Below, one piece after another: positions 18,324 to 21,809 of a stretch of 36,898 nucleotides of DNA; within the stretch, counting starts at the first letter, position 1, and each line of letters starts with the position of its first letter. This DNA is from Candidatus Methanomicula labiotermitis (lineage in GTDB: Archaea; Thermoplasmatota; Thermoplasmata; Methanomassiliicoccales; Methanomethylophilaceae). The DNA lies in assembly GCA_009780575.1 (NCBI GenBank), contig WQZU01000012.1, positions 1-36,898 on the forward strand. The letters are read 5' to 3'. The notes under the pieces were generated by a model, which did not search any database, was not told where the DNA came from, and was given only the letters and a program-made list of their open reading frames with translations. A program made the translations under genes and the position numbers.

Positions 18324-19184
18324 TCAAACGTATTCCATATCCTCTCTGGTGAGGCTGTGTCTCGTTCTTTCCTTCTCCGGATCGTTCTTCTCGGCGCGGT
18401 GTATGAGGCCGGTGAAAGGACTCTCGCGCTGTTCGGCCTCCTGTGCCGCAACCGGAACACTTCCGGCGGATATCGCTTTCGGCTCTTCTCTGGCAACGGA
18501 ACTTCTTACCAGGGAGTTGCAAACGACGACCCTTCGCTCCGGAACCTTGGACCGCTGTATCGACAACCGATCATCAAAATCCTCGAATCCGAGCTTTTTT
18601 CCGTGAACATATGCGGCCAGCGACCTGGGCATGAAAACGCGCTCTACCGGCGCGCTGCGCTTAGCTTCCTTGGAACGCTGCGACGATATGACGCCGCCTA
18701 CCATGCCGAAGACCACGGTGATTATGTAGATGTTGATCATCATGGATGTCGTCAATCCCATCGTGTCAAAGAAACCCTGCAGGAATGTCAGCAAGGTTGT
18801 CAGCAGCGACCCCAGGACGGCGGACATCTCTCCGATCGACGCTGCGGTTTGTTCAGGATCCGCAAGCAGGAAGCCGAATCCTCTTATGATGCCGGACGAC
18901 AGGATGGCTATCGCTCCCATGACTATCATGACGGACATAAGCGTTGCGACCATTCCCTTGGCGGGCGATCCTCCGACCCTGCCGCCGACGTACCCGGCTA
19001 TAGCCTGTCCGATTATAGGCAGCCACCAGAAAAGCATCGACAGGAGCAACGTGTAGCGTATGGCAGAACCGATGTTGCTGAACACGCTCTCCTTCTTTTC
19101 ACCAGCATTAACACCCACTTTTCTGTTCCCGCCAAGGAAAGACAGAAGGCCGTCGCTGTTCTCGGCGCCTTTTCCCATATGCAT
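18324..19184 (-). CDS. Multi-pass membrane protein with Gly-rich loop and long cytosolic tail
   Basis: I do not recognise the family. From ATG 19184 the protein has 286 residues: a polar N-terminus, hydrophobic helices at about 41-63, 77-100, possibly 120-140, and 146-167, and a charged tail of about 115 residues. GYVGGRVGGSP (65-75) between the first helices recalls small archaeal Gly-zipper membrane families. The start is chosen because a TATA (TTATATAGT, minus strand 19229-19237) is about 45 nt upstream; in-frame codons further 5' would precede the promoter. The left inverted repeat of the neighbouring cassette begins about 20 bp upstream of this TATA, so the promoter touches the element edge. 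Confidence 0.75.
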   Translation of the reverse strand: MHMGKGAENSDGLLSFLGGNRKVGVNAGEKKESVFSNIGSAIRYTLLLSMLFWWLPIIGQAIAGYVGGRVGGSPAKGMVATLMSVMIVMGAIAILSSGIIRGFGFLLADPEQTAASIGEMSAVLGSLLTTLLTFLQGFFDTMGLTTSMMINIYIITVVFGMVGGVISSQRSKEAKRSAPVERVFMPRSLAAYVHGKKLGFEDFDDRLSIQRSKVPERRVVVCNSLVRSSVAREEPKAISAGSVPVAAQEAEQRESPFTGLIHRAEKNDPEKERTRHSLTREDMEYV

Positions 19185-19253
19185 CCCTTTGTCAGACACA
19201 TGGCTGACATCATTGATTGGAACTGCGACTATATAACGTTTTCTCGCGCATGA

Positions 19254-19316
19254 GCTTTGCACCTAAAGTTATGTTTTTCTGACACATTAGGTGCAGAGTG
19301 CCGACTTTAGGCGCAA
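19254..19316. repeat. Left cluster of TTTAGGTGCA-type repeats
   Basis: Three copies: an inverted one within 19254-19269, ATTAGGTGCA at 19286-19295, and ACTTTAGGCGCAA at 19304-19316. The last two are 20 bp apart, two helical turns. The cluster lies upstream of the minus-strand TATA of the membrane protein gene, so a regulatory role is also possible. Confidence 0.75.
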
Positions 19317-19355
19317 CCTTTCTCATGTGATTTTATATTGGGCAAACAAGTGATT

Positions 19356-19565
19356 TCACTCATCGAAGCGACTCGTCGCTGCGTAAACCGATTTATATCT
19401 TTCTTCAATAGGCAACAGATTGTTTCCTTTTTCCTTGATCATGCCCATTTTTCTCAATGACTCTAATTTCTCCACGGCTTTTACATATTCGGAAATATTC
19501 TTGTTCCCCTCGAATTTTTTCGAATCGATCAAGGCAACGACCTCATCAACGATATTTTTCGTCAT
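19356..19565 (-). CDS. Small partner protein of the SDH-type protease
   Basis: This 69-residue protein is charged, Lys/Glu-rich and predicted helical, with no cysteine, signal or membrane segment. I do not recognise it. It overlaps the protease gene by 4 nt (ATGA), so the two are co-translated and probably act together, for example as adaptor, inhibitor or antitoxin-like partner; this is inference from context only. It lies wholly inside the AT-rich cassette. Confidence 0.7.
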   Translation of the reverse strand: MTKNIVDEVVALIDSKKFEGNKNISEYVKAVEKLESLRKMGMIKEKGNNLLPIEERYKSVYAATSRFDE

Positions 19566-20467
19566 GTGTTTCTCTCCTTTCTTCTGCTCGTGATTCTACT
19601 ATTTCTGGTGTCTAAACAATACTCGTAACCCATTTTATTAATGTAATCTATTACGTATGTATAGTATGTTGTAATAACTATTTCTAGTTCACTATTTTCA
19701 GAGAAATCATTAATTACAAGTCTTAATTCATTTCGTAAAGTCTCCATGTTGATTGGTCGACCGTGTGATTTCCACTTTTTGTTGTCGCTCAACTGTTTCG
19801 CAATATAGCTGGCCCTCTCCCGTTTCTCATCTTCTGTGACGGGCCTTCCAATCTTATCAGGGTCAGTTTTGTGTTCCGTCCAGCTTTTAAACTTATAATT
19901 AGCAAGCCAAGTTTCTAGTAAATCGATGGTTAGTTCTTTTGCCTGCTCATATTCACGGAGTTCGCCCAAATCCATATTGTTCAACATCATGAACTCGGCC
20001 TGTGAAAGTTCATCCTTCTTCGACTTTTCGATCATCTCGTTGACCTTATCCAAGTAACCCAATGCGGCGACCCAGCGCCCATCCTTATTCAACACCTGCG
20101 GATCGATGGGGCCCAACACACTGAAATAATTCATGAAGATACTGTCGCCGCTCATGCAAAATATCGTTCCTGCACTGTAGGCATAATCAGGAACTATGAA
20201 GTTTATCTCATCATAATGGTGTCTGATGACATTGACGCACCGTTCAACTTCCTCTGCGCTTCCGCCGGTCGTAGTTAGGATTATCGAGAGCTTCTTGTAC
20301 CCCTTACTATCTCTTTTCAATTCATCGATCATCTCACGAAACATTTCTGAAAGTCCAAAACTGAGGGGACCGTATAGAAATATAACATCTGAGGTCAATT
20401 TTTTCTCAATGGATATTATCGCTTTACGTAAATTCTTATCAATCTGAATATCAATGGGACTCTGCAT
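19562..20467 (-). CDS. SDH-type serine protease of the ClpP/crotonase fold
   Basis: The 301-residue protein matches the SDH (serine dehydrogenase proteinase) family, a ClpP-like group. The core shows ILTTTGGSAEEVERCVNVIR (about 63-82) as the oxyanion-binding strand and helix, AYSAGTIF with candidate nucleophile Ser98, and SVLGPIDPQ (116-124). It has no signal peptide or N-terminal membrane helix, unlike SppA or NfeD-linked proteases, so it should be cytosolic. Codon use is AT-rich compared with neighbours, a sign of transfer. AGAGGAT lies just before the ATG; a TATA-like TATTTGTAA is near 20525. Substrates are unknown. Confidence 0.82.
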   Translation of the reverse strand: MQSPIDIQIDKNLRKAIISIEKKLTSDVIFLYGPLSFGLSEMFREMIDELKRDSKGYKKLSIILTTTGGSAEEVERCVNVIRHHYDEINFIVPDYAYSAGTIFCMSGDSIFMNYFSVLGPIDPQVLNKDGRWVAALGYLDKVNEMIEKSKKDELSQAEFMMLNNMDLGELREYEQAKELTIDLLETWLANYKFKSWTEHKTDPDKIGRPVTEDEKRERASYIAKQLSDNKKWKSHGRPINMETLRNELRLVINDFSENSELEIVITTYYTYVIDYINKMGYEYCLDTRNSRITSRRKERNT

Positions 20468-20654
20468 CTTAATCCTCTCTTTCTCAATGCGCCTCTCTGA
20501 ATCCCTGTACCCCTATAGATTACAAATATCTTGCTCCCCGCGGACCAACAGGAAATCATGATCTCATCCCCGAACTTGACATCTCTGGACCAATTCTGAA
20601 GTTATGAACTATGCATCTGAACATGAAGTATTCTTCATATGTATTCGAAACGTG

Positions 20655-20708
20655 ACTTTAAGTGCAGGTTCCCTATTTTAGGTGCAAGTCAGACTTTAGG
20701 TGCAAAGC
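20655..20708. repeat. Right cluster of TTTAGGTGCA repeats
   Basis: Three same-strand copies: ACTTTAAGTGCA (20655-20666), TTTTAGGTGCAA (20676-20687) and ACTTTAGGTGCAAAGC (20693-20708), spaced 20 and 18 bp. The last is the exact reverse complement of the left-end copy. A degenerate TTTTAGGCG follows near 20760. Next to the array, ATGAAG-TATT-CTTCAT (20623-20638) is a small inverted repeat. Confidence 0.8.
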
Positions 20709-20719
20709 CTTGCGCATGA

Positions 20720-21087
20720 CCCGTAGGAAATTATCCGTGCAATACCACAAATGATATGTTTTAGGCGTCCGTGAACCACACTTACTTCGAACATACAATA
20801 TCGGATCCAGTACCGTCTGTCTAAACCTTTAATACCCTAATATATTGCCTTTTAAATGGGATGTACACTTTAAATGATTGAATCGGGCATTGCACACAGT
20901 CCAGATGAATTCGATTGCGTGTGCAAAAAGGACGGGGAAAAGGATAGCGGTCAGCAATCACGCAAAAACGCACATGGTGATCTTCAGGATCCCGGCTGTG
21001 ATGTTATGCGACATGATACAAAACCCGATTCCGTGCAACTCCCGAAAAGGACTTCCGCACCGCAAGAGTGCGAGAAGGATATGCGCT
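20720..21087. other. Intergenic region right of the cassette, no confident gene
   Basis: This stretch holds several plus-strand AT-rich promoter-like elements (CTTTAATAC, AATATATTG, CCTTTTAAATGG near 20825-20860), probably serving the genes from 21088. Two overlapping frames are open across 20874-21110 but neither has a convincing family pattern or ribosome site, so I treat them as chance or decayed. Confidence 0.4.
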
Positions 21088-21183
21088 ATGAAGAAGAACG
21101 TGAAGTATAACATCATACTTGACCCTTTCAAGATTCAAGAGGAATCCTGCTGGGTCGTTGCCAACATGGAGCCATTAAAATGA
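21088..21183 (+). CDS. Very small ORF, HicB-like N-terminus
   Basis: This 31-codon ORF has AAGGAT about 10 nt upstream and overlaps the next start by 4 nt. Its KYNIILDP...EESCWVVANME pattern resembles the first beta strands of HicB-type antitoxins but stops where that fold would continue. It may be a truncated remnant or a leader peptide. Weak evidence. Confidence 0.3.
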   Translation: MKKNVKYNIILDPFKIQEESCWVVANMEPLK

Positions 21184-21809
21184 GCAAGAACTGCGAACAC
21201 AAGTGGGAGAAGGTGGAGAGATCTCCGGAAGACATGGGTATATCATACTATTATCTCCAGTGTACCGATCCTAAGTGTAGTAAGGTCATCTACCCAATGG
21301 ACCAGTTGCAAAAGCTGATGGACCATTCGGAAGAACATCAGTTCATGTTCCTTGAAGATTGGATATTGACATTGTTCCATGCGCTTCCGGAATCGGACAT
21401 AGTTGGATGGACCAGTCTACAGAAGCAGGTGTTCTTAGTGATGGTGGAATTCGCGCAGGAAGAGCGCATACCGACAGAGAACATAGGATTCTATGCATAT
21501 GATTACGGTCCGTATGATGACAGGATAACCGATGCGACGGATGTCATGGTGGAAGGCGGCATAATCGAGAAGCAGGGCAGATACAGTCCAAAAAATGTAA
21601 GATTCCGGCTCACACCTGCAGGAACAGAGAGGGCAGCGGAATCATTCGATAAGCTCACAGAGGATCAAAAGAAGAAACTGATCGAACTCAGAAAGGAATA
21701 TCAGATGTGGGGACCGGACGGTCTTCTGAAATATGTGTACACGAAATACGATCAATACACTCGCTCATCCAAGATACGCCGCAGCGTACTGGATCCGAAG
21801 AAGAAGTGA
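21180..21809 (+). CDS. YwgA/Panacea-like protein with N-terminal zinc site
   Basis: The 209-residue protein has a short N-terminal Cys/His site (Cys5, His7, Cys28, Cys33) and then a helical domain with LQKQVFLVM, YAYDYGPYD and FRLTPAGTERA, ending with LLKYVYTKYDQYTRSS. That order is typical of YwgA-like proteins and close to the DUF4065/Panacea group, known as neutralising domains in some toxin-antitoxin pairs and near defence genes. Here there is no clear toxin, only a HicB-like scrap overlapping by 4 nt. It could regulate the neighbouring cassette; this is inference. Confidence 0.6.
   Translation: MSKNCEHKWEKVERSPEDMGISYYYLQCTDPKCSKVIYPMDQLQKLMDHSEEHQFMFLEDWILTLFHALPESDIVGWTSLQKQVFLVMVEFAQEERIPTENIGFYAYDYGPYDDRITDATDVMVEGGIIEKQGRYSPKNVRFRLTPAGTERAAESFDKLTEDQKKKLIELRKEYQMWGPDGLLKYVYTKYDQYTRSSKIRRSVLDPKKK

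Follow-up and report, generated by a model that had tools for sequence, protein, structure and literature searches.

Boundaries and Anatomy of the Element

In a 36,898-nucleotide stretch of DNA from Candidatus Methanomicula labiotermitis (contig WQZU01000012.1; hereafter the window), a short AT-rich segment with repeats at both edges raises the question of whether it is a mobile element and, if so, what would move it, how its position relates to the neighbouring gene and what it carries. A first-pass annotation had read it as a protease cassette mobilised in trans. Taking the explanation as a whole, we consider it very likely that positions 19253-20709 are a non-autonomous, cargo-carrying transposon derivative (mobile insertion cassette). 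Its asymmetric, multi-repeat ends are shared with an IS5-like DDE transposon family with a SWIM zinc finger, present across the class. The features of the locus are as follows:

18324-19184, minus strand: putative membrane-protein gene whose promoter is the inferred insertion site; kept in the genus at 57-63% identity
19229-19236, minus strand: TATA box (TTATATAG) of the 18324-19184 gene, 16 nt outside the A-end terminus (from the flank list)
19244-19252, no strand: left target-site duplication TCGCGCATG, matching 20710-20718 at 8 of 9 positions when the 9-bp frame of relatives is applied
19253-19317, plus strand: A-end, with a terminal repeat (19253-19269) and inverted subterminal copies at about 19284-19298 and 19303-19317 (A-end model R2, alignment A7)
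19356-19565, minus strand: 69-aa partner protein, its start overlapping the protease stop (small-ORF HMM match)
19562-20467, minus strand: SDH-type ClpP-fold serine protease, 301 aa (PF01972, conserved residues, AlphaFold fold)
20652-20709, minus strand: B-end, with three direct motif copies 20 and 18 nt apart (B-end model R1, alignment A8)
20710-20718, no strand: right target-site duplication TTGCGCATG, 8/9 identical to the left copy

The perfect 16-bp inverted repeats claimed at the outset are present as an exact reverse-complement pair of GCTTTGCACCTAAAGT, at 19254-19269 (plus strand) and 20693-20708 (minus strand). With up to three mismatches this sequence matches five times in the window, far above the chance expectation of 0.19. 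The repeats make up only the outermost portions of two transposon ends that differ from one another, and each end contains three copies of the motif TTTAGGTGCA. The A-end, on the left, combines an outward-facing terminal copy with two inverted ones, at about 19284 and 19303. The B-end, on the right, has its copies in direct order, at about 20655, 20675 and 20693. The end models recognise the window A-end with 64.5 bits (E 1.2e-17) and the window B-end with 60.4 bits (E 2.0e-16), these ends being among the seven and six sequences from which R2 and R1, respectively, were built.

In relatives, the termini read GGCTTTGC...GCAAAGCC and are accompanied by a 9-bp duplication. Applying this geometry, the window element is re-parsed as AGCTTTGC...GCAAAGCC, corresponding to 19253-20709, with a G-to-A change at the A terminus. 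The first-pass annotation had described an 8-bp flanking repeat offset by 3 bp on the right; both copies of GCGCATGA exist (19246-19253 and 20712-20719), but the offset vanishes in the 9-bp frame, in which the flanks are TCGCGCATG and TTGCGCATG, identical at eight of nine positions. The cassette is AT-rich as proposed (40.4% GC versus 50.4% in the rest of the window), and it encodes the expected SDH-type protease and 69-aa ORF, with no transposase found within the element. Nor was an intact transposase of the end family detected elsewhere in the genome of the window, which is about 95% complete. A weak second B-end without a recognised partner is located elsewhere in this genome (G000:C15:12177-12225, L235).

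The Family of Ends and Its Transposase

The exact 15-mer of the motif was detected in 5 of 61 genomes, the window's own included, and the motif with one mismatch in 9 of 102 genomes of the family, while the end models gave matches in 11-15 of these 102 genomes and in 21-29 of 400 genomes of the class, which gene content suggests is Thermoplasmata. Alignments of A-ends and of B-ends are nearly gap-free and define two distinct end types, the A-end with one terminal and two inverted copies and the B-end with three direct copies, 18 and 20 nt apart. The search for the 16-bp ends around other cargo, suggested with the first-pass annotation, showed the same ends flanking a transposase, MITEs and other genes across the class. 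The nearest analogue of the window (G253, contig C26) consists of an A-end, an unrelated gene for a 315-aa protein of unknown function and a B-end, with GAACATATC on both sides as a 9-bp duplication. G011 has an IS110 gene bracketed by two 126-bp A-B units (MITEs) that are nearly identical to each other, and the whole unit has CGTGAGAGA on both sides, a 9-bp duplication exactly abutting GGCTTTGC...GCAAAGCC; this layout is repeated in G402 (C49), with surface-protein genes between two MITEs and again a 9-bp duplication. Other ends lie directly beside the start of a radical-SAM operon, in G032 and, in an internally deleted copy, in G025; these copies belong to two genera and share 85-87% DNA identity. 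Lone palindromic units of only 48-50 bp were found in G023 and G082. As a side observation, the loci in G011 (G011:C1:593432-595453, L009) and G402 (G402:C49:16217-19892, L275) have the form of composite transposons built from MITEs, each with one outer 9-bp duplication.

Across the family of ends, 7 of 20 end pairs match at eight or more of nine flank positions, compared with none of 368 mispaired flanks (maximum 7). Among the seven, five relatives match at 9/9, while the window and one further relative match at 8/9. Two further pairs match in a shifted frame, over 10 bp in G167 and 8 bp in G270; more than half of the paired ends are without a duplication.

The transposase linked to these ends is encoded in G042, where the A-end overlaps the 3' end of a gene for a 422-aa protein; this protein has a SWIM finger at its N terminus (PF04434, marginally over the cut-off) as well as a DDE_Tnp_1 domain (PF01609, 86 bits against a cut-off of 23). 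In G032, a truncated DDE transposase lies at the edge of a contig, with an A-type end behind it. For both proteins the nearest NCBIfam model is IS5_2, and the full-length transposase scores 136.1 bits against NF033579, just under the cut-off of 140. A transposase adjoins or overlaps the A-end in G042, G032, G167, G356, G134 and others (with the A-end at its 3' end in G042, G032, G134 and G356), and a transposase or remnant lies near the A-end at 7 of 24 class-level loci. A complete element of 3287 bp is present in G167 (C54), formed by a B-end, a transposase (64% identical), an A-end and a perfect 10-bp duplication. Besides the transposase, this locus (G167:C54:50182-53468, L266) has two extra genes, one of them ParB-like by eye.

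The IS903 group of the IS5 family generates 9-bp duplications. The archaeal family resembles IS5-family DDE insertion sequences in its DDE_Tnp_1 domain, its best NCBIfam match (IS5_2) and its 9-bp duplication. However, its transposase has an N-terminal SWIM finger and scores just under the family cut-off, its ends are multi-repeat, its insertions are promoter-proximal, and its one complete element reaches 3.3 kb with extra genes.

Position of the Ends Relative to Promoters

The window A-end lies upstream of the 18324-19184 gene, and the promoter block GAAANCG-TTATATA of this gene is common to several same-genus orthologues that do not have the element. Comparison with relatives did not yield a clean empty site: the left flank and promoter are kept without the element in same-genus genomes, and the right flank is rearranged, forming a synteny break. 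Synteny with same-genus relatives ends at the right side of the element (window 20710-21180), and the divergent gene that relatives have there, metallo-hydrolase-like by eye, is missing from this position. The right-hand gene in the window (21180-21809) shows a weak SocA/Panacea-type antitoxin likeness (Pfam below cut-off; PADLOC PDC-M19A, E 9.5e-11), and it had no match among same-genus genomes.

The spacing observed in the window is not isolated. A hexamer made up of A/T only and including TA begins 16 nt outside the terminus in 20 of 54 flanks and 17 nt outside in 23 of 54, compared with only 0-7 of 54 flanks at offsets 0-14 and at 21 or beyond. A hexamer start within 15-18 nt occurs in 26 of 54 flanks; permuted data gave 7.5 on average (sd 2.4) and 18 at most, and none of 20,000 permutations reached 26. 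As only one flank of an insertion should face a promoter, a share of about one half is close to the highest to be expected. Because the pattern was first noticed in part of these data, a hold-out of 15 termini was used, which either came to light afterwards in the final model search or had not been part of the initial set; 7 of 15 had a hexamer at the expected spacing (permutation mean 1.4, p=5e-5). Because the two flanks of one element, orthologous rps3ae sites and elements close to each other all enter these tests, the sites are not fully independent; the definition of a TATA box is also simple, without mapped transcription starts behind it. Outward ORFs start within about 75 nt of many of the termini. 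Taken together, a strong family-wide tendency for a TATA box to follow one terminus at 16-17 nt is observed.

Ends are located in front of the rps3ae promoter at the 16-17 nt spacing in G032 and G002, and units are found near rps3ae in G003, G079 and G025. Ends recur upstream of rps3ae in five genomes, which represent at least three genera (G032:C12, G002:C67, G003:C71, G079:C106 and G025:C81; L011, L078, L012, L240 and L237), and it is possible that this region is an insertion hot spot.

This placement could suggest that the 16-bp motif is the palindromic operator of a host regulator acting upstream of BRE/TATA, with the cassette appearance being coincidental. The copies 16-17 nt upstream of TATA boxes, the lone 48-50 bp units and the recurrence before rps3ae in several genomes would agree with an operator, and the occurrence of the motif at unrelated promoters had been named in advance as a refutation of the cassette. 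The motif does sit before promoters, but 9-bp duplications are confined to true pairs, a transposase gene accompanies the A-end in several genera, there are two distinct end types, and the motif is rare in the family and does not occur in the promoters of the flanking gene's orthologues, which identifies it as the end of an inserting transposon. The operator reading is scarcely tenable and was rejected on the duplications and the transposase linkage.

Two other explanations concern the spacing itself. If insertions elsewhere were lethal or lost, promoter-proximal positions would merely be those that survive. Compact genomes tolerate intergenic insertions, which counts for this explanation without being a direct test of it; however, survival alone predicts a spread of distances upstream of promoters and not a peak at 16-17 nt, and we regard it as quite unlikely. 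A preference of the transposase for DNA shape or AT tracts, with no contact with the transcription machinery, is harder to set aside and remains a serious possibility, if somewhat short of an even chance. Transpososomes commonly favour bendable AT tracts close to the cleavage site, and AT tracts occur at about 16 nt on both sides in G167 and G434, and at 16 and 18 nt in the window. Against such a preference, most elements with a duplication have, by inspection, a tract on one side only, and an outward ORF follows many sites at a promoter-like distance.

The reading we tentatively put forward, without claiming even odds for it, is that the end family finds its targets via the archaeal pre-initiation complex (TBP/TFB on BRE/TATA) and joins at a set distance upstream, leaving the host gene active, so that non-autonomous copies could use a harmless address to move cargo such as defence-like pairs among archaea. 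Direction of insertion by TBP/TFB or by promoter DNA is inferred, and protein tethering has not been shown. Targeted insertion beside core promoters is known for some eukaryotic elements; Ty3/Ty1 and other promoter-targeted elements insert at a fixed distance from the core promoter and the gene stays usable. The archaeal family is similar in its promoter-distance insertion but differs in being a DNA transposon at an archaeal promoter for which tethering is undemonstrated. No prokaryotic transposon that keeps a constant distance from a TATA box is known to us, and literature searches for promoter-targeted archaeal elements or for SWIM transposases in archaea found nothing relevant. As far as the searched literature shows, the end anatomy and the promoter spacing are undescribed. 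If the targeting holds, archaea would provide a small model in which to study promoter recognition by a transposase, and such cassettes would explain how gene modules from bacteria become established in compact archaeal genomes with no gene disrupted.

Proposed Origin of the Window Copy

Mobilisation in trans, as first proposed, gains support from relatives, where the same ends enclose an autonomous element with its transposase, MITEs and further cargo, and where 9-bp duplications match on the two sides. A transposase acting in trans may have bound the repeats at the two ends, excised the segment and inserted it immediately before the BRE/TATA of the 18324-19184 gene without disrupting the promoter. 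These steps are inferred, whereas the ends, the duplication geometry, the linked transposase, the other cargo, the spacing and the conserved gene pair are observed. No intact element with protease cargo was seen outside the window, and the mobility of this copy is therefore inferred only from relatives, as transposition in trans itself is inferred. Given the 8/9 duplication and the G-to-A change at the A terminus, the window element may be old and immobile.

Mobile insertion cassettes are already known as a kind, for example MIC231 with IS231 of the IS4 family (cited in PMC2266710). MIC231 and the window element are alike in having insertion sequence ends around passenger genes without a transposase, autonomous relatives that share these ends, and direct target repeats. 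The window element differs in its asymmetric ends with three motif copies each, in an IS5-like transposase with a SWIM finger and in insertion tied to archaeal promoters.

The Protease and Its Small Partner

The protease matches PF01972 with 50 bits (cut-off 31.3) and the equivalog NF047768 with 59.7 bits, far under its cut-off of 250. S98, D122 and H235 are invariant in a 28-sequence homologue alignment and form a candidate triad, and the AlphaFold model (pLDDT 92.7) matches the SppA and ClpP folds. The protein resembles the SDH family of Clp-fold serine proteinases (PF01972, NF047768) in fold and in the Ser-Asp-His motif region, but in addition to its low equivalog score it is set apart by a further conserved stretch at the C terminus and by a small partner of its own encoded downstream.

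Homologues are bacterial, up to 57% identical, and distributed over many phyla (Bacteroidota, Spirochaetota, Fibrobacterota and others), with at least 550 relatives in GTDB species genomes; within the window's own family, only distant homologues (about 27-38% identity) of the cargo were found. A small ORF of one family lies directly downstream of the protease at 71 of 78 bacterial loci, often with a 4-bp overlap, although this count was made with an HMM built from the same set. The window's 69-aa protein, which is not in that HMM, matches it with 48.9 bits, compared with 11.6 for the best of 2000 shuffles. The two-gene system suspected from the start is therefore real and conserved in bacteria, and it constitutes a widespread module. 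It appears not to have been described as a pair, the literature search on an SDH protease pair having found nothing relevant. An IMG/VR search with the single protein gave no relative, the 69-aa protein was not found in plasmids, and a PDB sequence search gave only a spurious match.

The function of the module can only be inferred. The cargo may be a horizontally spread bacterial-type protease and small-partner unit of selfish or defence-like character, in which the small protein could regulate or target the protease. A stress or protein-quality-control protease, or a toxin-antitoxin-like pair, without an antiviral role is nearly as probable as not. This would be in line with the SDH/ClpP fold, with the lack of a convincing PADLOC match (the protease reached only Cmr1 at E 0.006 and the 69-aa protein nothing) and with the many housekeeping genes near bacterial homologues, whose neighbours by PADLOC/Pfam are a mixture of housekeeping and defence genes with no fixed neighbour. 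However, in E. coli, where 20 of 5426 genomes have a match (17 over most of its length), the prophage copies examined lie at or beside a cI-type repressor, a usual site of lysogenic-conversion and exclusion genes, and on Rhizobium plasmids the protease follows a multiubiquitin/ThiF/DUF6527 operon (L096 5039-9064, L098, L099). This placement favours a mobile, defence- or conflict-type module, for which PADLOC offers no model, and a defence role, though only inferred, is plausible. Genes next to cI in lambdoid prophages include rexAB; the E. coli protease homologues share this position, but the proteins are unrelated and no phenotype is known for the homologues. In two lambdoid prophages the pair is immediately downstream of the cI-type repressor, and in a third one small gene intervenes. 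The E. coli prophage loci with protease and small ORF are L095 (7923-8996), L280 (3001-4074) and L281 (3001-4074).
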